Below, piece by piece: positions 1,995 to 34,473 of a stretch of 47,244 nt of DNA. The notes under the pieces were generated by a model. It saw only the letters and a program-made list of their open reading frames with translations, made no database searches and was not told where the DNA came from. The position numbers were made by a program, and so were the translations under genes. The stretch covers positions 1 to 47,244 of the forward strand of contig JAFGAF010000194.1 of NCBI GenBank assembly GCA_016933815.1, written 5' to 3'. This stretch comes from Prolixibacteraceae bacterium. GTDB taxonomy: Bacteria > Bacteroidota > Bacteroidia > Bacteroidales > Prolixibacteraceae. The first letter of the stretch is position 1. The number at the start of each line of letters is the position of its first letter.

Positions 1995-3041
1995 ATGAAA
2001 CGAGCAATAAACATACTGGTGATTTTGGCAATAATAGCCGCAATAATATTAGTGCTAAGAATGAACAAAAAAACCAACCAGCAGAAAACAGAGCTGGCCT
2101 CAATGGTCTCAAGTGCTGTACCAGTGCAAATCGATGTGGTTGGAGAGGAAACCTTCAGCACCCAATTTACTTCGAATGGAACATTGGAGCCCATAAGGGA
2201 ATTGGCCTATGTTTCGGATGTTTCGGGGCGGATACTTAAAATTTTAGTTGACAAAGGCAGTTGGGTACAAAAAGGGCAAACCCTTATACAAGTTGACGAC
2301 GAAATGCTGAAAGCCGATTACCTATCGAGCGAAGCAACGTACAAAGCACTGAAAACCGACTACGAGCGTTTCGCAAAAGCAAAGGAAAGCGGAGGGGTTA
2401 CGGCACAGCAACTCGACAACATGCACATGCAACTTATTTCAGCCGAAAGTCGCTACCTAAGCAGCAAACGCCGACTGGCCGACGCTACAATAAAAGCGCC
2501 CATTGCAGGGTACATTAACGAACGTTACATCGAAGTGGGAGCCTACCTTAATCCCGGAGCAAGGCTTTTCGATATCATCGACGATTCGCAGCTTAAACTA
2601 CGCTGCAATGTTACCGAGGCACAGGTTCTCCGCATTGCCAAAGGGCAGCAAGTGCAGGTTAAAAGCGATGCCATTGAAGAAGGTACTACCGGAACCATTT
2701 TGTTTATAGGCAAAAAATCGGGTGTCGGGCTCAGCTATCCGGTTGAAATTACAATTAACAACAAGAATGGCTTACTGGCGGGAATGTATGCTACGGCTAA
2801 TTTTGAATCGAACTCACAAACAACAAGCATTCTGATTCCTCGGAATGCCGTGAGCGGAAGCGTTAAATCGGCCAGCGTGTTTGTAGTGAAAAACGGAACC
2901 GCACAACATCGCGATGTAGTTATTGGGAACATGGTAGGTACCATGGTCGAAATCACGCAAGGCCTGCAATCGGGCGACAGCATTGTAGTAGCCGGGCTCA
3001 TTAACGTGGCCGATGGAACCAAAGTGATTAACAGTAAATAA
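1995..3041 (+). CDS. RND efflux periplasmic adaptor (membrane fusion protein)
   Basis: N-terminal TM plus lipoyl/barrel-sandwich motifs ('VSGRILKILVDKGSWVQKGQTLIQVDD', 'IKAPIAGYINE'). Confidence 0.93.
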   Translation: MKRAINILVILAIIAAIILVLRMNKKTNQQKTELASMVSSAVPVQIDVVGEETFSTQFTSNGTLEPIRELAYVSDVSGRILKILVDKGSWVQKGQTLIQVDDEMLKADYLSSEATYKALKTDYERFAKAKESGGVTAQQLDNMHMQLISAESRYLSSKRRLADATIKAPIAGYINERYIEVGAYLNPGARLFDIIDDSQLKLRCNVTEAQVLRIAKGQQVQVKSDAIEEGTTGTILFIGKKSGVGLSYPVEITINNKNGLLAGMYATANFESNSQTTSILIPRNAVSGSVKSASVFVVKNGTAQHRDVVIGNMVGTMVEITQGLQSGDSIVVAGLINVADGTKVINSK

Positions 3042-3049
3042 GCCTGACG

Positions 3050-6000
3050 ATGAAAATATCAGAAATATCAATCAAACGGCCCATATATGTTATCGTATTA
3101 TTTGCCGTACTCACCATACTCGGTTACCTGGGGTTTCGCAACCTGGGCGCCGAACTGATGCCCAAGTTTACCCCGCCTGTAATCAATGTTCAGGTGGTTT
3201 ATCCCGGAGCATCGCCACTCGAGGTTGAGAACTCGCTGACCCGGAAGCTTGAAGATGCTCTTTCGAGCCTGGAAGGGATTGACCAAATTCAGTCCTATTC
3301 ATTCGAGGGAATGTCGATGCTTTTTGTACTTTTTAATTATGGCACCGATATCGATAAGACAATCACCAATGCGCAAAACCGTATTTCATCAAAAATGATG
3401 GAATTACCACGCGATATTTTATCACCAACTATTAATAAAGTAACCGTCGACGATAAGCCTATTATCTCAATTTCAGCCACATCTAAGCTCGAAGCAACTG
3501 CTTTTTACGACTTAATGGACAAGCGCATAATGCCTTACATGAACAGTATAAAAGGGGTTGCCAAAGTGAGCCTGCTAGGCGGACAAGCCCGCGAAATACA
3601 AGTCAACCTCGACATGGACAAGATGCGTGCCTTTGGCATTACGCCCATACAAATTCAAGGCATTATACGTGCATCGAACCTCGATTTTCCAACGGGTAGC
3701 CTAAAAAGCAACCAAACTTCGACCATTGTACGCCTATCGGGTAAACTCAAAAGCATTGAAGAAATAAAAAACCTGGTGATAAGCACATTGCCCACCGGTA
3801 GCCAAATACGGTTAAAAGATGTGGCCGAAATATCGGATGCAGTTAAAGATCCAACTACCCTTGCCCGGGTAAACGGCGAGGAAGCGCTGTTGGTTAACCT
3901 GCTCAAACAAGGCGATGCCAACGCCATAGAAGTAAGCGACATGGTTCGCGAAGCCATTGCAGCACTCGAAACCGAATTTGCCGACGAAGGACTGAAAATG
4001 GAAATTGCGCAAGACTCAACCGACTTTACCCGTCAATCGATCAACTCGGTATTAAAAGACCTTTTGATGATTGTTTTATTGGTAACACTGGTGATGCTAT
4101 TCTTCCTGCACAGTTTTCGTAATGCATTAATTGTAATGACCGTGGTACCTGTTTCTCTAATCGCCACTTTTATAGGCATGCAAATATTCGATTTCACGCT
4201 TAACCTAATGTCGTTACTGGGGCTTTCGCTTGTGGTTGGCGTTCTGGTCGACGATGCCATTGTGGTAATCGAAAACGTGTACCGCCACATCGAAATGGGC
4301 AAAAACCGCGTTCGGGCAACTTACGATGCCATGAAAGAAATTGGATTTGTGGTGATTTCAACCACTGTGGTACTTGTTGTGGTTTTTCTACCGGTTGCCC
4401 TTACCGAAACCTTGGTGTCGGACATTTTGCGACAATTCTCGTTGGTAATTGTGTTTGCCACCATATTCAGTACTCTGGCTGCACTTACACTTACACCACT
4501 GCTCACCTCGCGCTTTGCAAAGGCCGAAAACATTTCGGGGAAAGGGATTTTCAAAAAAATAATTATCGGTTTCGAGAAACTGATTACGAATTTTAGCAAT
4601 TGGGTTTCAAACATACTTTCCTGGTCGTTATCACACAAGCGATGGGTCGTAATTATTGTAACAGCCGTAACCATAGCCATATTCTCGCTATTTCCACTTG
4701 GTTTTATTGGTTTCGAATTTTTGCCAAGTGTTGACAGGGGCGAATTTAAAGTCCAAATTGAAATGCCCAAGGATATTTCCTTTGAACAATCGAATGCCAT
4801 GGTAAGGCGTGCCGAAGACTGGATGCGTTCTCAACCTATTGTTAAGAATGTAATTACCACCGTAGGGGCAACCAGCGATAACACCCAAAGCTCAAGAGGT
4901 ACAGCCTATTTGGCCGAGATGAACGTTGAACTGGTAAACCGCGATATGCGCGACATGGAAACAAGCCAATACGTAACCTTTATCAGGCAACCCCTCTCCG
5001 ATTTTTTGATGGATGCCAAAATAAAAATATTCAACGTTGCCCTAACCGGCGAGGCATCAAAAGCTCCTGTTGAATACGTAATTAGTGGCACCAACCCCGA
5101 CACCCTGATGGCTTTTGCCGAACGGGCACTTGAAGTTATGCGCAACATTCCGGGCACCATGCAACAAGAACTATCGGTTGAAAGTGGCACCCCCGAAATA
5201 TCGGTAGCTGTTAACCGCGACAAGATGTCGGCTCTTGGCCTAAACATGGACAACGTGGGGCTTACCATGCAAATGGCATTTCAGGGCAATAACACCCTAA
5301 AATATACTGAGAATAACTACGAATACGACATCAACATCAGGGCCGACAGGGCTTACCGGCAGCAAACCACCGATGTGGAAGCACTGACCTTTGTGAACAA
5401 CCGCGGTGAAAAAATTCGCCTCGACCAATTTGCTGATATTTTATTGAGTACTGGTCCCAATAAACTGGAACGTTATAACCGAAACAGTTCGGTTACCATT
5501 CGCACCCAATTACTGGGAACAACATCGGGAAATGTGTCAAGCCAATTTCTGAACGAAATGAACAACATGGGCATTCCCAAAGGCGTTAAAATTGAAGCTA
5601 CCGGCGATTTAAAATCGATGGCCGACTCGATGAGCGTTTTAACTTCAGCCTTACTCTTATCTATCGTACTTATATACCTTACCATGGTGGTATTGTACAA
5701 CAACTGGATCGACCCGCTGGTGGTGATGTTCTCCATACCGTTATCGATATTAGGAGCTACCCTGGCATTGGCGCTTACCAATACTCCGCTAAGTATTTAT
5801 GGCATGTTGGGACTGGTAATGCTCATTGGCCTTGTTGCCAAAAATGCCATCCTGTTAGTCGACTTTGCTAACGAAGCTATAAGACTAGGAAAGACAGCCG
5901 AAGAAGCCTTGATTGGAGCAGTAAAAATACGTACAAGACCAATCTTGATGACAGCTATTTCGACCATTGTAGGGATGCTCCCTGTGGCTTTGGCTACGGG

Positions 6001-7809: not shown

Positions 7810-8544
7810 CTATTGCTTCAACGCCGCCTTGCTAAAAATATACTCGGGAATTTCTACATCGAATTCGATTTTTGTGACTGTGTATTCGGTGCCGTCGCCT
7901 TGTTTGAGCATGTCTTTATAGATCATCGTTTTGGGAAACCAGCGACTACCTATTTTTGCTACTTCGCGCATTTCAAGGCGTTTGAGCAGTTGGCCGCTTT
8001 TGGCGTACATTTCTTGCTTGAGCGGTACAAAACGTTCGGCATCGACCCACATTTTTTGGCTGTGGTAGGCAATGTCGGATGTTTTGGCAGTGAGCTCAAT
8101 CAGGTAGGCATTACGCCCGTCGATTTGCTCTTCGCCCAGCACTTTGGCATCGTACATGTCGGTCAGTTTGCGGTCGTCCATCATGTCTTCGTACGAGAGG
8201 TCGCTGCCCATTACGCTTTGGCGCAGCATGTGCCCCGATATTTGTATGGTGCGGTCGGTGCCGGGCGAATAAATCCACAGCTGGTCATCGAGCTTCAACA
8301 TTTTAGTACCGGCATCACGTGCCGGTGAAAGGTACTCGGTAAATGCTTTTTCGTTGCCCACGGCATAACTGCGCGAGGTCATGGTGCGCGAATTGCGTTT
8401 CCCATGAATGGTAATGGTCGATTCCATCACGCGGTTTTCCGACGAAAGGTTTTGGTCAACCTTGTCGAGTATTTCGTTGGCATCGGGCGCAGCAAAACCG
8501 GCTAATGCCAAAAACAAAGTTACAATTGTTGTAAATGTCTTCAT
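7810..8544 (-). CDS. Outer membrane lipoprotein-sorting protein (LolA-like)
   Basis: Signal peptide, 'MTSRSYAVGNEKAFTEYLSPARDAGTKMLKLDDQLWIYSPGTDRTIQISGHMLRQSVMGSDLSYEDM'. Confidence 0.88.
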   Translation of the reverse strand: MKTFTTIVTLFLALAGFAAPDANEILDKVDQNLSSENRVMESTITIHGKRNSRTMTSRSYAVGNEKAFTEYLSPARDAGTKMLKLDDQLWIYSPGTDRTIQISGHMLRQSVMGSDLSYEDMMDDRKLTDMYDAKVLGEEQIDGRNAYLIELTAKTSDIAYHSQKMWVDAERFVPLKQEMYAKSGQLLKRLEMREVAKIGSRWFPKTMIYKDMLKQGDGTEYTVTKIEFDVEIPEYIFSKAALKQ

Positions 8545-13616: not shown

Positions 13617-13776
13617 TTATTCGTATTTTATACTTTATACGTACAAATATACGTTATTTTTCTTTTTTGCAATATTTCGTAAGTTTATTATTGGAAAAAA
13701 TATCATTTTTGCTTTTTTGTTGATTACATTTTACGTTTTAGCGTTTTTTTGTTGATTTGGTTTGACGTTTTTGTGT

Positions 13777-13804
13777 ATATTTGTAAATCAAATTCAACAA
13801 ATAT
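13777..13804 (+). promoter_or_regulatory. -7 box plus dyad at the start of DUF4143 ATPase no. 1
   Basis: TATATTTG (TAnnTTTG) at 13776; ATATTTGT (13777-13784) / ACAAATAT (13797-13804), right arm overlapping the ATG. Confidence 0.6.
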
Positions 13805-15002
13805 GGAATTAAATAGATTGTACACATGGTCGTACCAACAAATAAAACGAACAAACAATACTTTTAAACGGTACTTATGCGAGCGGATAGACTGGAAGAA
13901 CCGGCTGAATATTATTATTGGGATGCGGGGCACCGGTAAAACCACCATGATGCTCCAGTATGCCAAAAATGAATTGCCTTTTGACGAATCGACAATTTAC
14001 GTATCGCTCGACGATATTTACTTTTCATCAAACAGCCTTGTTGTTTTTGTTGAAGAATTTGTAAAACGCGGCGGGAAATACCTGTTAATTGACGAAGTGC
14101 AAAAATACCCCAACTGGTCGAAGGAAATCAAAAGTATTTATGACAATTATCCTGAATTGCAAATCACAATAAGCGGTAGCTCAGCCATTGAAATACTTAA
14201 AGGCGAAGGCGACCTAAGCCGCAGGGCACTAATCTATCAACTTCACGGACTTTCGCTACGTGAGTTTGCCGAAATGAAATACCAACAAAAATTCGACACC
14301 ATTTCACTTGACCAAATAATCAACAATGCAACTTCAATATCCATTTCAATTTCAAACGAAATAAAACCCATTAAACTTTTCGAAGAATACCTGTCACATG
14401 GCTATTATCCATTTTCAATTAATGACGAAACCAATTTTGCACAACGAATGATGCAAGTTATCAACGTTGTGCTCGAAACCGACATACCGTCGGTCAACAA
14501 CATTGATTATAATGCGGTATTAAAAATGAAGAAGTTATTGGGGATAATTGCCGAATCGGTGCCCTTTAAGCCCAATGTTACCAAACTAGCGGTTCAACTG
14601 TCGTTATCGCGCGAAACACTGCTTAAATATTTTACACTGCTTGCAAAAGCCGATGTAATATCAACCCTATATTCTAATACCAAAGGGATCAGCGCATTAA
14701 ACAAGCCAGAGAAAATTTATCTGCAAAACCCAAACCTAGCCCATTTACTTTCGTCACAAAATGCTAACACAGGAAACATAAGGGAAACATTTTTTCTCAA
14801 TCAGCTTCAAATAAACCATCAGGTTGAATACCCTGTGAAAGGCGATTTTTTGGTCGATAAAAAATACACATTCGAGGTAGGCGGAAAAAACAAAAGTACC
14901 CTACAAATTAAAGAAATATCCAACGCTTACATCGCAGCCGACAACATCGAAATAGCTGTCGGTAACAAAATTCCGTTGTGGATGTTCGGGTTTATGTATT
15001 AA
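13803..15002 (+). CDS. AAA ATPase with DUF4143-like C-terminal domain
   Basis: Walker A 'GMRGTGKTT', Walker B 'YLLIDEVQKYPNW', 'ISGSSAIEILKGEGDLSRRALIYQLHGLSLREF'; start at MELNRLYTW. Confidence 0.88.
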   Translation: MELNRLYTWSYQQIKRTNNTFKRYLCERIDWKNRLNIIIGMRGTGKTTMMLQYAKNELPFDESTIYVSLDDIYFSSNSLVVFVEEFVKRGGKYLLIDEVQKYPNWSKEIKSIYDNYPELQITISGSSAIEILKGEGDLSRRALIYQLHGLSLREFAEMKYQQKFDTISLDQIINNATSISISISNEIKPIKLFEEYLSHGYYPFSINDETNFAQRMMQVINVVLETDIPSVNNIDYNAVLKMKKLLGIIAESVPFKPNVTKLAVQLSLSRETLLKYFTLLAKADVISTLYSNTKGISALNKPEKIYLQNPNLAHLLSSQNANTGNIRETFFLNQLQINHQVEYPVKGDFLVDKKYTFEVGGKNKSTLQIKEISNAYIAADNIEIAVGNKIPLWMFGFMY

Positions 15003-15083
15003 AATAGCTATTTTTGTATGCTTATTCGATATGTTGTCGATTTTCTATGCAATTTTCACTATCTTTGTGGAAACAATTGAAAA

Positions 15084-15716
15084 ATGAGTTCGATAAGAGA
15101 ATATGGAATAATACCGATAAGCACCGACATGGTGGCTGATGCAATTGGCGAATACCGTTCGCCTGCCGACCGCATTAGCCGTTTGGCCAGGCGTGGCGAC
15201 CTTATCAGGTTGCAGCGCGGGCTTTTTGTGGTTGCGCCTGAACTAAGCGGGCAAACCCTTTCGCGCGAACTCATTGCCAACCACCTGTACGGTCCGTCGT
15301 ATGTTTCGTTCGAAAGTGCCTTGAGTTACCATGGCATTATTCCTGAAAGGGTGCACATGGTAAGGTCGTCCACATTTAGGCGTTCGAGACAAGTAGAAAC
15401 TCCATTGGGCGTATTTCAATATACAACAGTGCCCGAAAACTATTATCCAATTGGCATTACACAAATGCTTTACGAAGAAGAAAATTATTCATTTTTAATG
15501 GCCAGCCCCGAAAAAGCCATTTGCGATTTGATTATATGCACCTCGGGGTTACGTATTCAATCGGAACGAGCCATGCGCGAATACCTTTATGAAGACATGC
15601 GCATGGATTTTGACGACCTTGAGCGAATTGATACCGGCATAATTGAACAGTGCATCGAACATGGTCGTAAAAGAAGAGAATTGAGGTATTTACTAAACGT
15701 TTTACAAAATGAGTAA
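15084..15716 (+). CDS. AbiEi-like antitoxin (type IV TA)
   Basis: 'RISRLARRGDLIRLQRGLFVVAPE' wHTH and 'YVSFESALSYHGIIPERV...MASPEKAICDLI'. Confidence 0.88.
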   Translation: MSSIREYGIIPISTDMVADAIGEYRSPADRISRLARRGDLIRLQRGLFVVAPELSGQTLSRELIANHLYGPSYVSFESALSYHGIIPERVHMVRSSTFRRSRQVETPLGVFQYTTVPENYYPIGITQMLYEEENYSFLMASPEKAICDLIICTSGLRIQSERAMREYLYEDMRMDFDDLERIDTGIIEQCIEHGRKRRELRYLLNVLQNE

Positions 15717-16545
15717 CAACATGTTCGACCAAATGCTTTCGAGGTACGAAATTCGCACCAAAGACGAAAAGCTGAATGCCACCCACGAGGTGATGCAGCA
15801 AATTAGCCTGGCAGGACTCTTTCGTGGAGGTTTTTTTAATCACGCAGCCTTCTACGGCGGAACCTGCCTTCGTATTTTTCATAAACTACCACGGTTTTCC
15901 GAAGATATGGATTTTTCGTTGCTCAAGAAAGATGACACGTTTAATCTTGAGGACTATTTCGATGCGGTTTATTCAGAATTTAAATCACTTGGCCGCGAAA
16001 TTAATATCGATAAAAAAGAGAAAAAAACAGAAAGCCATATTGAATCTGCTTTTTTAAAAGACAATACCGACATCTATAATTTAAAGTTTCAGACCGAGAA
16101 AACCGTAAAAATAAAAATAGAGGTTGACAAGGACCCTCCATTGCAGTTCAATAGCGAAAACAAGCTGCTTTTACACCCTTTTTCATTTATGACACGCTGC
16201 TACACGCTACCCAACCTTTATGCCGGGAAAATGCACGCGCTTGTTTACCGAAAGTGGCGAGGCCGCGTTAAGGGCCGCGACTGGTTCGACTTTGAATGGT
16301 ATGTGAAGAATAATGTCGCGCTCGATTTTAAGCATCTAAAAGAGCGCATCGCACAAAGTGAGAATATTGATAAAAGCGTGATTACACAGGAATATTTTAT
16401 TACTAAACTCAAAATAAAGATTTTAAACACCGACATCAGTCAGGTAAAAGCCGACGTACACCCTTTTATTAAGGATACAAAAGAAATGGAGCTTTGGAAC
16501 ACAGATTACTTTTTGCAACTTGCCGACATGATGCACTTCTCGTAA
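15709..16545 (+). CDS. AbiEii/AbiGii nucleotidyltransferase toxin
   Basis: 'FYGGTCLRIFHKLPRFSEDMDFSL' NTase motif; overlaps the AbiEi gene by 8 bp. Confidence 0.9.
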   Translation: MSNNMFDQMLSRYEIRTKDEKLNATHEVMQQISLAGLFRGGFFNHAAFYGGTCLRIFHKLPRFSEDMDFSLLKKDDTFNLEDYFDAVYSEFKSLGREINIDKKEKKTESHIESAFLKDNTDIYNLKFQTEKTVKIKIEVDKDPPLQFNSENKLLLHPFSFMTRCYTLPNLYAGKMHALVYRKWRGRVKGRDWFDFEWYVKNNVALDFKHLKERIAQSENIDKSVITQEYFITKLKIKILNTDISQVKADVHPFIKDTKEMELWNTDYFLQLADMMHFS

Positions 16546-21610: not shown

Positions 21611-22735
21611 TTATCTATACAGATTCAAATAGTTATCAAATGCATATACTCGACTTCTTTGACCACCAGTCTTTTCGTTCAATATATTAAGTTTCTCTAA
21701 ATCAGATATTAACTTATATGACGATGGCATTGAAATCGAAGCAACTTCACTTACCTTGGCAGCAGTAATCATCGGGCGTTTATATAAATATTCAATTACT
21801 TTCTTTGCCTTTAACGCTCTGCTGCCCAACAACTGAATGTCGTTATCAATTTGCTTTTGAAGTTGTAATATATTGTCAAAAGTGAAAATTCCATTTTTTG
21901 CAGTCTCAGTTACTCCAACAAGAAAAAATTTAAACCATTGCGCTAAATCATTTTTTTCTCTTACTGTAGTTAAATTATCGTAGTACAATTGTCTGTTTTT
22001 CTCAAAAAAATCGGATAAATACAAAACTGGTTTTTGCAATATTCCTTTGCTTACTAAATAAAGAGGAATCAAAAGTCGCCCAACCCGACCATTTCCATCA
22101 AGAAAAGGGTGAATTGTTTCAAATTGGTAATGAATCAAGCCTATTTTCAGCAATTCAGGTATATGAAAGTTTTCATTATGAATAAATTTTTCTATATCAC
22201 TCATCATATCAGCAACAGAGCTATGAACCGGGGGAATAAACACAGCATCATTTATTGTTGCTCCGCCAATCCAATTTTGACTAGTCCGAAATTCGCCCGG
22301 CTGTTTTTTTTCTCCTCGTACACCTTGAAGTAATACTCGATGAGTTTCTCTGATTAGCCGCGATGAAAAAGGCAGTTTATCAAATTGTTCAATAGCCCAT
22401 TCCATTGCTTTTATGTAGTTCTGAACTTCCTCCCAATCATCTCGTTTATCTAAAGGCAAATCCTCTTTATCCAAAAGAGCTTCATCCATATTTGTCTGTG
22501 TTCCTTCAATCCTACTGCTCTGAGTAGCTTCCTTTAACACATGCATACTGATAAACAACTCAATATTGGGAATATATTTTGAATACATATCCAACCTGCC
22601 TAATTCCCTGTCAGCTTCACTTAATAGTTGCAATATTTCCATATTGTCAACTTGTAATTGCCTGTTAATATATTCAGGTTGAAAGCTTCTGTAATAACCC
22701 TGATTTATGTATTGCCCTGATATAAACTGTTTCAT
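21611..22735 (-). CDS. Fic family protein with N-terminal inhibitory motif and C-terminal wHTH
   Basis: FIC motif HPFLDGNGRVGR; SSRIEGTQ inhibition motif; C-terminal 'MITAAKVSEVASISMPSSYKLISDLEKLNILNEKTGGQRSRVYAF'. Confidence 0.95.
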   Translation of the reverse strand: MKQFISGQYINQGYYRSFQPEYINRQLQVDNMEILQLLSEADRELGRLDMYSKYIPNIELFISMHVLKEATQSSRIEGTQTNMDEALLDKEDLPLDKRDDWEEVQNYIKAMEWAIEQFDKLPFSSRLIRETHRVLLQGVRGEKKQPGEFRTSQNWIGGATINDAVFIPPVHSSVADMMSDIEKFIHNENFHIPELLKIGLIHYQFETIHPFLDGNGRVGRLLIPLYLVSKGILQKPVLYLSDFFEKNRQLYYDNLTTVREKNDLAQWFKFFLVGVTETAKNGIFTFDNILQLQKQIDNDIQLLGSRALKAKKVIEYLYKRPMITAAKVSEVASISMPSSYKLISDLEKLNILNEKTGGQRSRVYAFDNYLNLYR

Positions 22736-30624: not shown

Positions 30625-30659
30625 AAACCGCCTTCTCAGCATTGGGAAGGCGGTTTTTT
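30625..30659 (+). terminator. sdhB terminator (repeat copy A)
   Basis: AAACCGCCTTCTCAGCATTGGGAAGGCGGTTTTTT. Confidence 0.88.
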
Positions 30660-30672
30660 GGTTTTTATTAAT

Positions 30673-30885
30673 CTATACTGCAAGATTTATTGCCATGGAA
30701 CGCGGCATAGGAACAGGCCTTTTATCAGTTTGAAGTTCTTCAATATAAAGGTCAATTGCTTCTTTTATATTAATCTCTATTTCCTTAATCGACTCACCAA
30801 CACTAATGCATCCGGGCAAATCAGGAACATAGGCGCTATATCCTCCATTTTTACATTCTTCAATTATAACAACATAGTTTCTCAT
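30673..30885 (-). CDS. hicB: HicB-like antitoxin
   Basis: 'MRNYVVIIEECKNGGYSAYVPDLPGCISVGESIKEIEINIKEAIDLYIEEL'. Confidence 0.93.
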   Translation of the reverse strand: MRNYVVIIEECKNGGYSAYVPDLPGCISVGESIKEIEINIKEAIDLYIEELQTDKRPVPMPRSMAINLAV

Positions 30886-30891
30886 AATGAT

Positions 30892-31080
30892 TTATTTTAA
30901 GCCAGCTTGTTTTAAAATACTATTTTCTGTTCCTAATTGAATATCTTTATTTTGTTCATGATCAGGTACAACAACAATACCTTCTTTAATTCTATGCTTA
31001 TATACTTTGTGACTTCCTTTTTGACGCACAAAGTACCAACCATCATCTTCAATTAGTTTGATTAATGCTTTTAGTTTCAT
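30892..31080 (-). CDS. hicA: HicA-like mRNA interferase toxin
   Basis: 'MKLKALIKLIEDDGWYFVRQKGSHKVYKHRIKEGIVVVPDHEQNKDIQLGTENSILKQAGLK'; TAACTTTG -7 box directly upstream. Confidence 0.93.
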   Translation of the reverse strand: MKLKALIKLIEDDGWYFVRQKGSHKVYKHRIKEGIVVVPDHEQNKDIQLGTENSILKQAGLK

Positions 31081-31188
31081 TACTTCAAAGTTAGGGATTA
31101 TTTGAAACTTGAACAATATTAAAATGGGAGCATTGTATTCATTTTATAACAAACGAACTTATGCAACTTAATTTGGTTTGAAAATGGC

Positions 31189-31225
31189 AAACCGCCTTCT
31201 CAGCTTTGGGAAGGCGGTTTTTTTT
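31189..31225 (+). terminator. Orphan terminator (repeat copy B of the sdhB terminator)
   Basis: AAACCGCCTTCTCAGCTTTGGGAAGGCGGTTTTTTTT; one mismatch to copy A over 35 bp; no + strand gene in front of it. Confidence 0.85.
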
Positions 31226-31230
31226 AAAGA

Positions 31231-31395
31231 TCACCGCACCACCATCAGCCGTTGTGTTTGCACGCCTTTATCAGAATAAAGTGTAAGCAGGTAAATCCCT
31301 TCGGCAACGTTGCTCAAATCGAAGTCGAGTTGGTGCTTGCCGGCTGCAAAATGGCTTTGCAAGTAACGCAACTGTCGCTCGTGCCTAACATGGCC
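31231..31395 (-). pseudogene. 3'-terminal remnant of a T9SS type A sorting-domain gene
   Basis: Minus-strand translation HERQLRYLQSHFAAGKHQLDFDLSNVAEGIYLLTLYSDKGVQTQRLMVVR*, near-identical to the C-terminus encoded at 32644-32796. Confidence 0.92.
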
Positions 31396-31409
31396 GATCA
31401 CATATATTG

Positions 31410-32558
31410 CTAAATCCGATTAAAATTAACAATCTTATGGTTTTGAACAGTAAAATCATCATCGCCTGAATAGATCAGGGTTGATTCTTGAATACGATCG
31501 GGAATAAGGTTTCTTAAATAATTCAATCCTTTTAAAAATTCAGGGTGAAAGGTCATGGCCGATTTTATTTCGAACAGTTTTAGATAATGCCCTTGTTCTT
31601 GAACCAGATCAACTTCGTTTCCGTGGTTATCGCGGTAAAAGAAGAAATTACTGTCCAGGCCATTGTTATACCTTCTTTTCAGCAATTCAATCACAACCAT
31701 GTTTTCAAATAGGGCTCCTCTCAAGGGGTGGGTTGCCATGTGTGTTTCGTTTTCAATTCCTAAGAGGTATGAGGCCAAGCCAACATCGTAAAAGAAAATT
31801 TTGGGCGTTTTAACTATTCGCTTATTCAAATTTGAGTGCCATGGATGCAAAACAAATACAATATATGAAGCCTCTAATATTGAAAGCCAATTTTTTATGG
31901 TATGTACCGAAACCCCGATTTCATTGCCCAAGGCCGAAGCATTGAATAATTGACCGATACGACCGGCACACAAGCGAATGAAAAGCTGAAATTGATGAAG
32001 GTTCTGGATATTGCTCAATTGCCTTACATCTCGTTCCACATAAGTTTCATAATAATTTCGGTATGCTTTGTAAGGGTTCAATTCGTTAGAATATACTCCC
32101 GGATAAAAGCCTTTTGTTAGCAGATGGTCAACCCTAACTTCGCTGTCGAATTTGTTGGCTTCAGAGATGGTAAACGGAAGCAATTTCAATAACGATGTCC
32201 TGCCGGCCAAACTTTGAGAAACAGAGCTTAACATCGATAATTGATTGCTTCCGGTTAAAATAAACCGGCCCATCGTTCTTTTTGAATCAACAAGCCCCTG
32301 AATGTAAGACAATATCTCGGGATAACGTTGAAACTCATCAATGATCATTCCATCTTGGTTTGCTTGCAGAAAAGCTCTTGGATCGAGTTCGACTTGTTGT
32401 CGTGTGTCGGGGTTTTCAAAATTGAAATATGGTTTGTTGGGGAATGTGGTCCGCGCTAAGGTAGTTTTTCCCGATTGACGTGGCCCTGTTATGGTCACAA
32501 CAGGATAATGTCCCGACATCGCAAGCAATTCGTTATGTATTTCCCTTTCGATAATCAT
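31410..32558 (-). CDS. AAA ATPase with DUF4143 domain
   Basis: Walker A 'TGPRQSGKTTLA', Walker B 'MIIDEFQRYPEIL', C-terminal 'FFYRDNHGNEVDLVQEQGHYLKLFEIKSAMTFH'; start at MIIEREIHNELL. Confidence 0.92.
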   Translation of the reverse strand: MIIEREIHNELLAMSGHYPVVTITGPRQSGKTTLARTTFPNKPYFNFENPDTRQQVELDPRAFLQANQDGMIIDEFQRYPEILSYIQGLVDSKRTMGRFILTGSNQLSMLSSVSQSLAGRTSLLKLLPFTISEANKFDSEVRVDHLLTKGFYPGVYSNELNPYKAYRNYYETYVERDVRQLSNIQNLHQFQLFIRLCAGRIGQLFNASALGNEIGVSVHTIKNWLSILEASYIVFVLHPWHSNLNKRIVKTPKIFFYDVGLASYLLGIENETHMATHPLRGALFENMVVIELLKRRYNNGLDSNFFFYRDNHGNEVDLVQEQGHYLKLFEIKSAMTFHPEFLKGLNYLRNLIPDRIQESTLIYSGDDDFTVQNHKIVNFNRI

Positions 32559-32601
32559 ATTTGTACAATTTTGAAGTAAGAGTTCAATATTGTACAAATA
32601 T
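32557..32601. promoter_or_regulatory. 45-bp dyad overlapping the start codon of DUF4143 ATPase no. 2
   Basis: ATATTTGTACAA-tt-TTGAA-gtaagag-TTCAA-ta-TTGTACAAATAT; 12-bp perfect outer arms plus 5-bp inner arms. Confidence 0.7.
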
Positions 32602-32643
32602 AATCAAACCTTCTGAATAACAATATGATTTAAGACAAGACCT

Positions 32644-34473
32644 TTACCGCGCCACCATCAATCGTTGTGTTTGCACCCCTTTATCAGCATAAAGTGTGAG
32701 CAGGTAAATCCCTTCGGAAACGTTGCTCAAATCGAAGTCGAGTTGGTGCTTGCCGGCTGCAAATTGACTTTGAGGATGTAGCTCCTGCCTTTCGTGCCCT
32801 GCAAGGTCAACTAACGAAATGCGGGCATCGATGGTTTCGGGCAGTTCAAAGCTAACACTTACCCTATAATTGGCTGGATTGGGAAAGATTTTGAAATCAG
32901 TCAATTGCAAAGTGTTTTTGCACTCCTCGTAATACTTGCACTCGGGTTTTACCAGGGTTGATTTATCATCGGCAGTGATGTATTCAATTTCAGCTCGCAA
33001 ATCAACACTTACTTCCTCCGAAATGGAATTGAAAAAATTTTCGTTGGGAAGAAACCAAAAAATCAGGCTTTCGTTATAGCCACTGGCACAAACTTCGACA
33101 GGGATGAGCAAAGAAATTTGCTTGAATATTTCATCATCACCGGGAAAAAGCATAGGCAATAGTCCTAACGAGCCGAAAAGGGGGCTCCCTTTTTTATCTG
33201 TCATAAAAAGCGCTAACGAACCTTTGTTGAGTTCAGTATGTTGAAGTTCGTCGTATTGCATTGTTTGAATTTGAGAGTTCCTTTCTGCTAATACAACTTT
33301 CATTTGGCATCTTGAGTTTTTTCCGGTGTAAATTGTTGAGTCGGTATAAAAACAAAAACCTAATTTTTCCAACTCTTTTTCACTTAATTTCATAATTTTT
33401 GACTCATCCAGTAAGAATGGCGACTGATATAAAACAAAATCTTTTTGAGGGTACTTTTGTTTGTATAATTTAATTTTCAGCAATTCATCCAACATGGGTT
33501 TGTGATTTGCCGACAATAGATCATATAATTGATTGTTAACTACAAACCAAAGCAATATGTCGTGGTCTCCGTCTTCAAAGTCGGGAAAAACAATGGGTAG
33601 CAAAGTGTCGTTGGCCGATTCGAAAAATTCAGTTTCAAGTGTTCCATTCGACATGACATTTGAATAAAACCTGCTTGATTTATACACCGGATAGAAACTA
33701 AATTCGTTACCTGAAGTTTGAATTTTTTCAGTTCTTTCAAATGCAGTTTCTTCTTCAGTGATATAATATCCAGTGTAATTTGTGAGTTCGCCAAAAACCT
33801 GTTTTTGAGTTTTTCCAAAACGATAACCCATTCCATTCCAGTTATTTTCATAAAGGATCAAGCTGTCTTCTACTTGAAAACCAATCTTTTCCAACTCTTT
33901 GTTGCTCAATTTTAAAACAAATTTGCTGCCATCAATTGGCTCAAATGTATCGATATCGGAATCGATGGGCATGGCTTCAACAGAGGGCTCGGCTACTATG
34001 CTTTTAGAGGCAACTTGCATATTGTTAGCAAGCATCAAGCTGCTTTCTGTGGCTTCAGTTGTTTCTTTGTTCAAATCAGCCATGGTAATCATTTCATCGC
34101 CACTATTGTTATTCGTTGTTAGGGCACCATTGCCTTCTTGCTTCATTAATGGCATTGAGCCAGATGTATTTTCAATGGCATTTGATTTTTGATTTTTGTA
34201 ATTTGGAATTTCTTCCTGGGCTGTTGGCCATAAAAGCACGGCACTTACTATTACTGCAAAAATTGTTGTCATAATGGTAAATTTTAATAATTTTCGGCGT
34301 CCCTTCTTCACCTCAGCCTTAACCTCAGCCTTAGCCTCAACCTTAGCCTCAGCCTCAACCTCAGCCTCAACCTCAGCCTCAGCTATAATCCGGTGCACCT
34401 TCTCAATTTCCATCAACGGAGGGTTCTTTTTAACCAGCTCGAAATAGTTGTCGATTTTATTTCCGTTTTTCAT
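32644..34473 (-). CDS. Anti-sigma-like membrane protein with T9SS type A C-terminal sorting domain
   Basis: Cytosolic N-terminus 'KIDNYFELVKKNPPLMEIEKVHRII', one TM 'LLKFTIMTTIFAVIVSAVLLWP', C-terminal 'FKIFPNPANYRVSVSFELPETIDARISLVDLAGHERQ...GVQTQRLMVAR'; downstream of an ECF sigma gene. Confidence 0.8.
   Translation of the reverse strand: MKNGNKIDNYFELVKKNPPLMEIEKVHRIIAEAEVEAEVEAEAKVEAKAEVKAEVKKGRRKLLKFTIMTTIFAVIVSAVLLWPTAQEEIPNYKNQKSNAIENTSGSMPLMKQEGNGALTTNNNSGDEMITMADLNKETTEATESSLMLANNMQVASKSIVAEPSVEAMPIDSDIDTFEPIDGSKFVLKLSNKELEKIGFQVEDSLILYENNWNGMGYRFGKTQKQVFGELTNYTGYYITEEETAFERTEKIQTSGNEFSFYPVYKSSRFYSNVMSNGTLETEFFESANDTLLPIVFPDFEDGDHDILLWFVVNNQLYDLLSANHKPMLDELLKIKLYKQKYPQKDFVLYQSPFLLDESKIMKLSEKELEKLGFCFYTDSTIYTGKNSRCQMKVVLAERNSQIQTMQYDELQHTELNKGSLALFMTDKKGSPLFGSLGLLPMLFPGDDEIFKQISLLIPVEVCASGYNESLIFWFLPNENFFNSISEEVSVDLRAEIEYITADDKSTLVKPECKYYEECKNTLQLTDFKIFPNPANYRVSVSFELPETIDARISLVDLAGHERQELHPQSQFAAGKHQLDFDLSNVSEGIYLLTLYADKGVQTQRLMVAR
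34312..34383. repeat. 12x imperfect hexanucleotide tandem repeat CTYARC
   Basis: ctcagc cttaac ctcagc cttagc ctcaac cttagc ctcagc ctcaac ctcagc ctcaac ctcagc ctcagc, encoding [A/V][E/K] dipeptides. Confidence 0.92.

Follow-up and report, generated by a model that had tools for sequence, protein, structure and literature searches.

Copies of neighbouring gene ends bracket hicAB and other modules in a Prolixibacteraceae genome and at further Bacteroidales loci

The window analysed here comprises 47,244 nt of a Prolixibacteraceae bacterium contig (JAFGAF010000194.1, assembly GCA_016933815.1) and contains three modules, hicBA, a DUF4143 ATPase gene and higBA, each flanked on one side by a neighbouring gene's end or terminator and on the other by a copy of it (Table 1). 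Within the hicBA locus, hereafter the index locus, HicA with its GSH motif is encoded adjacent to HicB and both proteins match their families (PF07927 and PF15919) above the respective cut-offs, which places the pair among type II HicAB systems. The window is rich in defence or addiction genes: a second DUF4143-like ATPase, an AbiEi/AbiEii pair and a Fic protein are encoded at 13749-16545 and 21611-22735, and no clear flanking repeats were found at these further modules of the window. A 22-nt inverted repeat around TTTGTACAATTTTGAA (32554-32604) overlaps the start of the bracketed DUF4143 ATPase gene, and other palindromes occur at ATPase gene starts in two relatives (G005 and G010); such palindromes are perhaps operators.

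Table 1. Coordinates of the bracketed modules, their neighbouring genes and the repeated gene ends in the window
Feature	Start	End	Strand	Evidence and remarks
sdhB	29836	30597	+	ORF; matches in 56 of 61 relatives
T1, sdhB terminator hairpin	30625	30659	+	Repeat search, folding, genus-mate comparison
hicB antitoxin, 70 aa	30673	30885	-	PF15919, 3.6e-14; stop codon 13 nt from T1
hicA toxin, 62 aa, GSH motif	30892	31080	-	PF07927, 1.8e-20; start codon 108 nt from T2
T2, second terminator copy, new 5' flank	31189	31223	+	One mismatch to T1
Orphan 3' end of T9SS-sorted gene	31231	31401	-	Repeat 31233-31385; PF18962 weak, below cut-off
AAA_14/DUF4143 ATPase	31410	32597	-	PF13635, 1.2e-51
Intact T9SS-sorted gene	32644	34473	-	Tail 32646-32798 is the other repeat copy
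Orphan tail 2 of LolA-like gene, beyond higBA	6761	6852	-	Repeat search
higA-like antitoxin (HTH_3)	6876	7340	-	Domain search
higB toxin	7333	7641	-	PF09907, 4e-28
Orphan tail 1 of LolA-like gene	7711	7802	-	Repeat search
Intact LolA-like gene	7810	8544	-	PF17131, 1.4e-61; tail 7817-7908

The two terminator copies form a 35-nt direct repeat, AAACCGCCTTCTCAGC[A/T]TTGGGAAGGCGGTTTTTT, identical at 34 of 35 positions, with a single A/T difference in the loop and no match in 100 shuffles of the sequence. Both are predicted to fold into strong hairpins, with energies of -25.4 kcal/mol for T1 (z -7.6) and -22.5 kcal/mol for T2 (z -3.9), and both are followed on the + strand by a run of T 3' of the hairpin; read on the - strand, the T2 hairpin has only a short U tract. 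The first-pass annotation had reported two same-strand copies with one mismatch, as we find, but it extended T2 to 31225, an end reached only by counting two extra T beyond 31223. Its description of T2 as an orphan terminator beyond genes of the opposite strand agrees with our analysis: no + strand gene is recognisable between T1 and T2, and the interval holds hicB and hicA only. That the terminator might be a generic genome repeat was considered and rejected, since with up to two mismatches the motif occurs at only these two sites in its own assembly (3.2 Mb, 82% complete).

The surroundings of the two hairpins differ in an orderly manner. T1 is preceded by ATACAAAAAC, which is common to the genus-mates G001 and G007, and T2 by new sequence, TTTGAAAATGGC, without ATACAAAAAC; on its 3' side, toward the T9SS tail, T2 is followed by a longer T run like the one in G001 and G007. 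The ancestral left-hand surroundings are thus preserved at T1 and what may be the ancestral right-hand ones at T2, an arrangement that would result from adding hicBA at the terminator. T1 is the ancestral, inherited sdhB terminator and T2 an extra close copy of it. T1 can act as a bidirectional terminator, serving sdhB and the convergent hicBA, and T2 is most likely a scar, orphan on the + strand, because a good T run is present only on that strand, where no gene needs it. A coincidental likeness between two independent terminators might be entertained because terminators of this genus share a AAACCGCC...GGCGGTTTT theme, but the agreement includes the unpaired loop, the assembly holds no other match, and no near-identical or similar pair of hairpins at most 1.5 kb apart was detected in 884 kb of sequence from 80 related sdhB loci; we grant coincidence next to no probability.

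Genus-mates with a readable locus carry a single such sdhB terminator hairpin and no hicAB, and no close hicA was found in any of seven genus-mates. A related hairpin lies at a similar distance behind sdhB in G001, G003 and G007, and also in G004, where it follows an extra hairpin; the stems have drifted. The extra hairpin of G004, TCAGGGTTTCACTCAAAGTGAAACCCTGA, lies between sdhB and the terminator (L099 5330-5395), and in G005 a REP-like hairpin replaces the sdhB terminator (L040 660-710). What follows sdhB varies: an unrelated gene in G001 and G007; a SNF2-like helicase and a cellulase-like gene (names read from sequence) and then a T9SS gene in G004; a DUF4143 ATPase and then a T9SS gene in G005; and, in the sister-genus genome G010, a DUF4143 ATPase and then hicBA. 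In G031, also of that sister genus, hicBA directly adjoins homologues of the T9SS and sigma-factor genes. G010 and G031 encode HicA and HicB proteins with 79-87% identity to those of the window. With its content differing in this way among relatives, the interval behind sdhB is a place of change.

The first-pass annotation had proposed looking for relatives with sdhB, one terminator copy and no hicAB; the genus-mates show this combination, but their downstream genes differ from those of the window, and the exact pre-insertion site, with the sdhB terminator directly facing the T9SS gene, was seen in no relative examined. An insertion of hicAB has the ancestral T1 and its close copy T2 in its favour, but must accommodate hicAB at the locus in the two sister-genus genomes. 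Recent arrival of hicAB is therefore not the sole possible history: G010 and G031 show that donors with hicBA in the interval exist, yet an older resident hicBA is possible too, and if hicAB was at the locus earlier, T2 may stem from a later rearrangement. No donor with sdhB, terminator and hicBA in direct adjacency was found among the genomes examined, and along sdhAB there was no switch of closest relative of the kind expected from a recombination mosaic, relatives being only ~70-88% identical there and too distant to inform. Alternatively, hicBA may have been resident from before, with no hicAB insertion at all, and slippage, tandem duplication or gene conversion may have produced the second terminator afterwards. 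Such a history would agree with the positions of hicAB in G010, close to sdhB, and in G031, next to the homologue of the T9SS gene, and with the varying content of the interval in general. Tandem duplication, however, would have copied the flanks as well, whereas the repeat ends at the hairpin on both sides, and the same bracket is found around unrelated modules, so that we consider this history quite improbable.

Two further bracketed modules lie in the window itself. On one side of the DUF4143 ATPase gene is the tail of the intact T9SS-sorted gene, and on the other an orphan copy (86% identity over 153 nt); higBA lies between the tail of the LolA-like gene and orphan tail 2, with the additional orphan tail 1 situated ~60 nt behind the intact gene. 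Behind the orthologous LolA-like gene of G001 (L479, after 2232) there directly follows an AAA ATPase-like ORF of 389 aa that resembles the DUF4143 ATPase family of the window, and in G003 (L478 2230-2770) the LolA-like gene is followed by repeats and, after ~400 nt, by an orphan LolA-like tail. Across the window, G001 and G003, the end of the LolA-like gene appears to be a repeatedly hit site. In G004 (L098 2450-2940), an orphan T9SS-gene tail has the intact gene on one side and, on the other, the terminator belonging to a convergent LytTR-like regulator gene; the interval consists of repeat-like sequence with no evident gene, and the tail is perhaps a scar left after module loss.

The frequency of such brackets was surveyed in Bacteroidales by scoring direct repeats of at least 30 nt with at most 15% mismatches, present in exactly two copies that span the focal gene at a distance of at most 1.2 kb each. 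Spanning repeats were present at 15 of 140 nonredundant hicA loci, at none of 67 control acetyltransferase loci (GNAT, PF13302; Fisher test, p = 0.003) and at one of 267 random genes taken from 80 sdhB regions (p = 7.5e-7), the single random match being a DUF4143 ATPase gene that separates sdhB from an orphan sdhB tail. The 15 do not include the index locus, because its palindromic repeat scores as more than two copies, and they do include two unconvincing matches (L204, a tandem hicAB, and L226, simple repeats). When strict orphan tails alone are counted, the excess at hicA loci (6/150 against 0/68 for GNAT) is not significant (p 0.18); adding the random genes to the controls gives p 0.004. 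These figures supersede an initial, looser count (13/68 against 7/380), which was discarded in favour of the stricter criteria. In the corresponding survey of DUF4143 loci 13 of 47 passed the automatic criteria; on inspection most were ordinary intergenic repeats or tandem paralogues and were rejected, leaving clean cases only in the window and at L114. The latter (3009-5400), in another Prolixibacteraceae genome, consists of sdhB, a DUF4143 ATPase gene and then an orphan sdhB tail of ~100 nt with mostly synonymous differences.

At the other convincing hicAB loci the repeats are 37-163 nt long, compared to 35 nt at the index locus, and the module occurs in both orientations. Behind genes for a GH3 protein (L184), an alanine racemase (L214) and an OmpA-family protein (L332), and at L231, the repeat consists of the last 40-141 nt of the neighbour and ends at its stop codon; at L387 the repeat of the neighbour's 3' end stops 13 nt before the stop codon. 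A second terminator case is provided by L068, in a genome of another family, where a 44-nt terminator-like hairpin brackets hicAB behind dnaJ. It had been suggested at the outset that toxin-antitoxin modules in other genomes might lie between direct-repeat terminators; the bracket around hicAB indeed recurs, L068 included, but across these loci the general target appears to be the 3' end of the neighbouring gene rather than terminators as such. In G530, the nearest relative in a donor or empty-site search at L231 (82% protein identity), nothing matching the hicAB insert follows the gene, and G530 does not distinguish the resident tail from the other.

Pairwise identity among the HicA proteins of bracketed loci falls to 26%, which argues that no single element lineage is moving. 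A further possibility is that T1 and T2 mark the two boundaries of a small hairpin-ended mobile element or cassette, be it integron attC-like, IS200/IS605-like or REP-like. Same-strand imperfect palindromes at both ends, a small cargo and toxin-antitoxin content are what such an element would present, but the genome holds only two copies, direct inspection revealed no attC cores (RYYYAAC/GTTRRRY) in T1 or T2, and no recombinase domain was detected in the insert ORFs tested at the window or at other loci. The repeats of other loci are, moreover, gene tails whose ends differ from locus to locus, with no common end motif apparent across the bracketed loci. We therefore deem a hairpin-ended element very unlikely.

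The origin of the second copy was addressed through the codons of the repeated tails. In seven coding cases the substitutions between copies affect 31 codons synonymously and 15 nonsynonymously (67% synonymous), whereas simulated in-situ duplication followed by decay yields an expected 40% (95% range 26-54%), with none of 2000 runs reaching the observed value; stop codons also differ between the tail copies at L184, L214 and L114. The predominance of synonymous differences implies that the tails apparently diverged mostly while both were functional, in donor and recipient. On the evidence of these codons, a homologous donor allele is the more likely source of the second copy than in-situ duplication and decay would be. 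The test is restricted to coding cases, T1 and T2 at the index locus being non-coding and 34/35 alike, and for the index locus a donor-derived second copy is what we infer.

The same data weigh on a true target duplication, in which a staggered break opened the sdhB terminator, hicBA or some other fragment entered there, and fill-in synthesis produced the 35-nt repeat. Such an event is the simplest reading of a near-perfect repeat, and the index locus has the corresponding features, with long near-identical direct repeats at both ends and no transposase or integrase in the T1-T2 interval. There is also precedent: PMC3874152 reports, citing Nobusato 2000 and Furuta 2010, that restriction-modification systems insert into genomes without a mobile element and duplicate long, variable stretches of the target, on the order of 100 bp. 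In the coding cases, however, the repeats end at the stop codon or very close to it, not at random positions farther on, and mostly synonymous differences together with differing stop codons fit two alleles better than one duplicated target. We consider target duplication unlikely, though still worth keeping in mind.

The explanation that we favour, and regard as probably correct, is that T1 and T2 are copies of the sdhB terminator, that hicBA was added as a toxin-antitoxin module, and that the duplicate is the scar of its entry through recombination at the 3' end of the neighbouring gene. In the incoming DNA, the module would have been linked to a homologous copy of the neighbour's 3' end, at the index locus in the order sdhB, terminator and hicBA. 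Homologous recombination between this incoming end and the resident gene would have formed one junction; the other, inside the resident 3' region, would have arisen illegitimately or through a single crossover of a circularised fragment, so that the resident tail or terminator ended up orphaned on the far side of the module. The insertion would have been tolerated because the neighbouring gene retained an intact end, toxin addiction would then favour retention of the module, and a transposase would not be required. Recombination between the 35-nt repeats could, in turn, remove hicBA.

Minimal mobile elements, in which variable cargo between conserved genes is moved by recombination in the flanks, resemble the loci described here. 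They are swapped between two conserved flanks, whereas the present loci leave a duplicated end instead. Another parallel is homology-facilitated illegitimate recombination, in which one homologous anchor adds foreign DNA, along with single crossovers of circularised fragments, which in Escherichia coli left gene-end duplications of 109-950 bp (PMC3240628). Those events were obtained in the laboratory with engineered plasmids, and the ones proposed here are deduced from natural loci. PMC5361080 likewise proposes a one-sided homology mechanism for effector-immunity modules, as in displaced Rhs/CDI 3' regions and orphan immunity arrays, where a module enters at the 3' region of a gene and the old 3' pieces remain downstream as orphans. 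In Rhs/CDI systems, however, it is the gene's own effector end that is exchanged, while at the present loci the module adjoins a housekeeping gene that is unrelated to it and remains functional. With the long target duplications of restriction-modification systems, as described in PMC3874152, the present loci share a transposase-free addiction module with long, variable direct copies of the target on both sides; they differ in involving toxin-antitoxin pairs (hicAB, higBA) and DUF4143 ATPases of Bacteroidales, in the repeat often being a gene 3' end or terminator, and in substitutions that suggest a donor allele. The literature that we searched, which included few subscription journals, describes no long target duplication for hicAB, other toxin-antitoxin modules or DUF4143 ATPases.

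Extending the proposal from the index locus to the order, we suggest tentatively, as a conjecture with somewhat less than even prospects, that type II toxin-antitoxin modules and DUF4143 ATPases of Bacteroidales may move without a transposase by way of gene 3' ends: carrying a homologue of the neighbour's tail, they would restore the gene as they enter, with the resident tail or terminator persisting as a scar, and could excise and re-enter through the same repeat. The spread of chromosomal toxin-antitoxin modules without transposases is a long-standing question, and bracketing by the copied end of a neighbour suggests a route by which selfish gene pairs may enter chromosomes in this manner. 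An orphan gene tail or terminator beyond a module would constitute a recognisable scar, pinpointing recent insertions and naming their donors and empty sites, and it would allow testing whether addiction modules are enriched through their mode of entry or through their resistance to loss.
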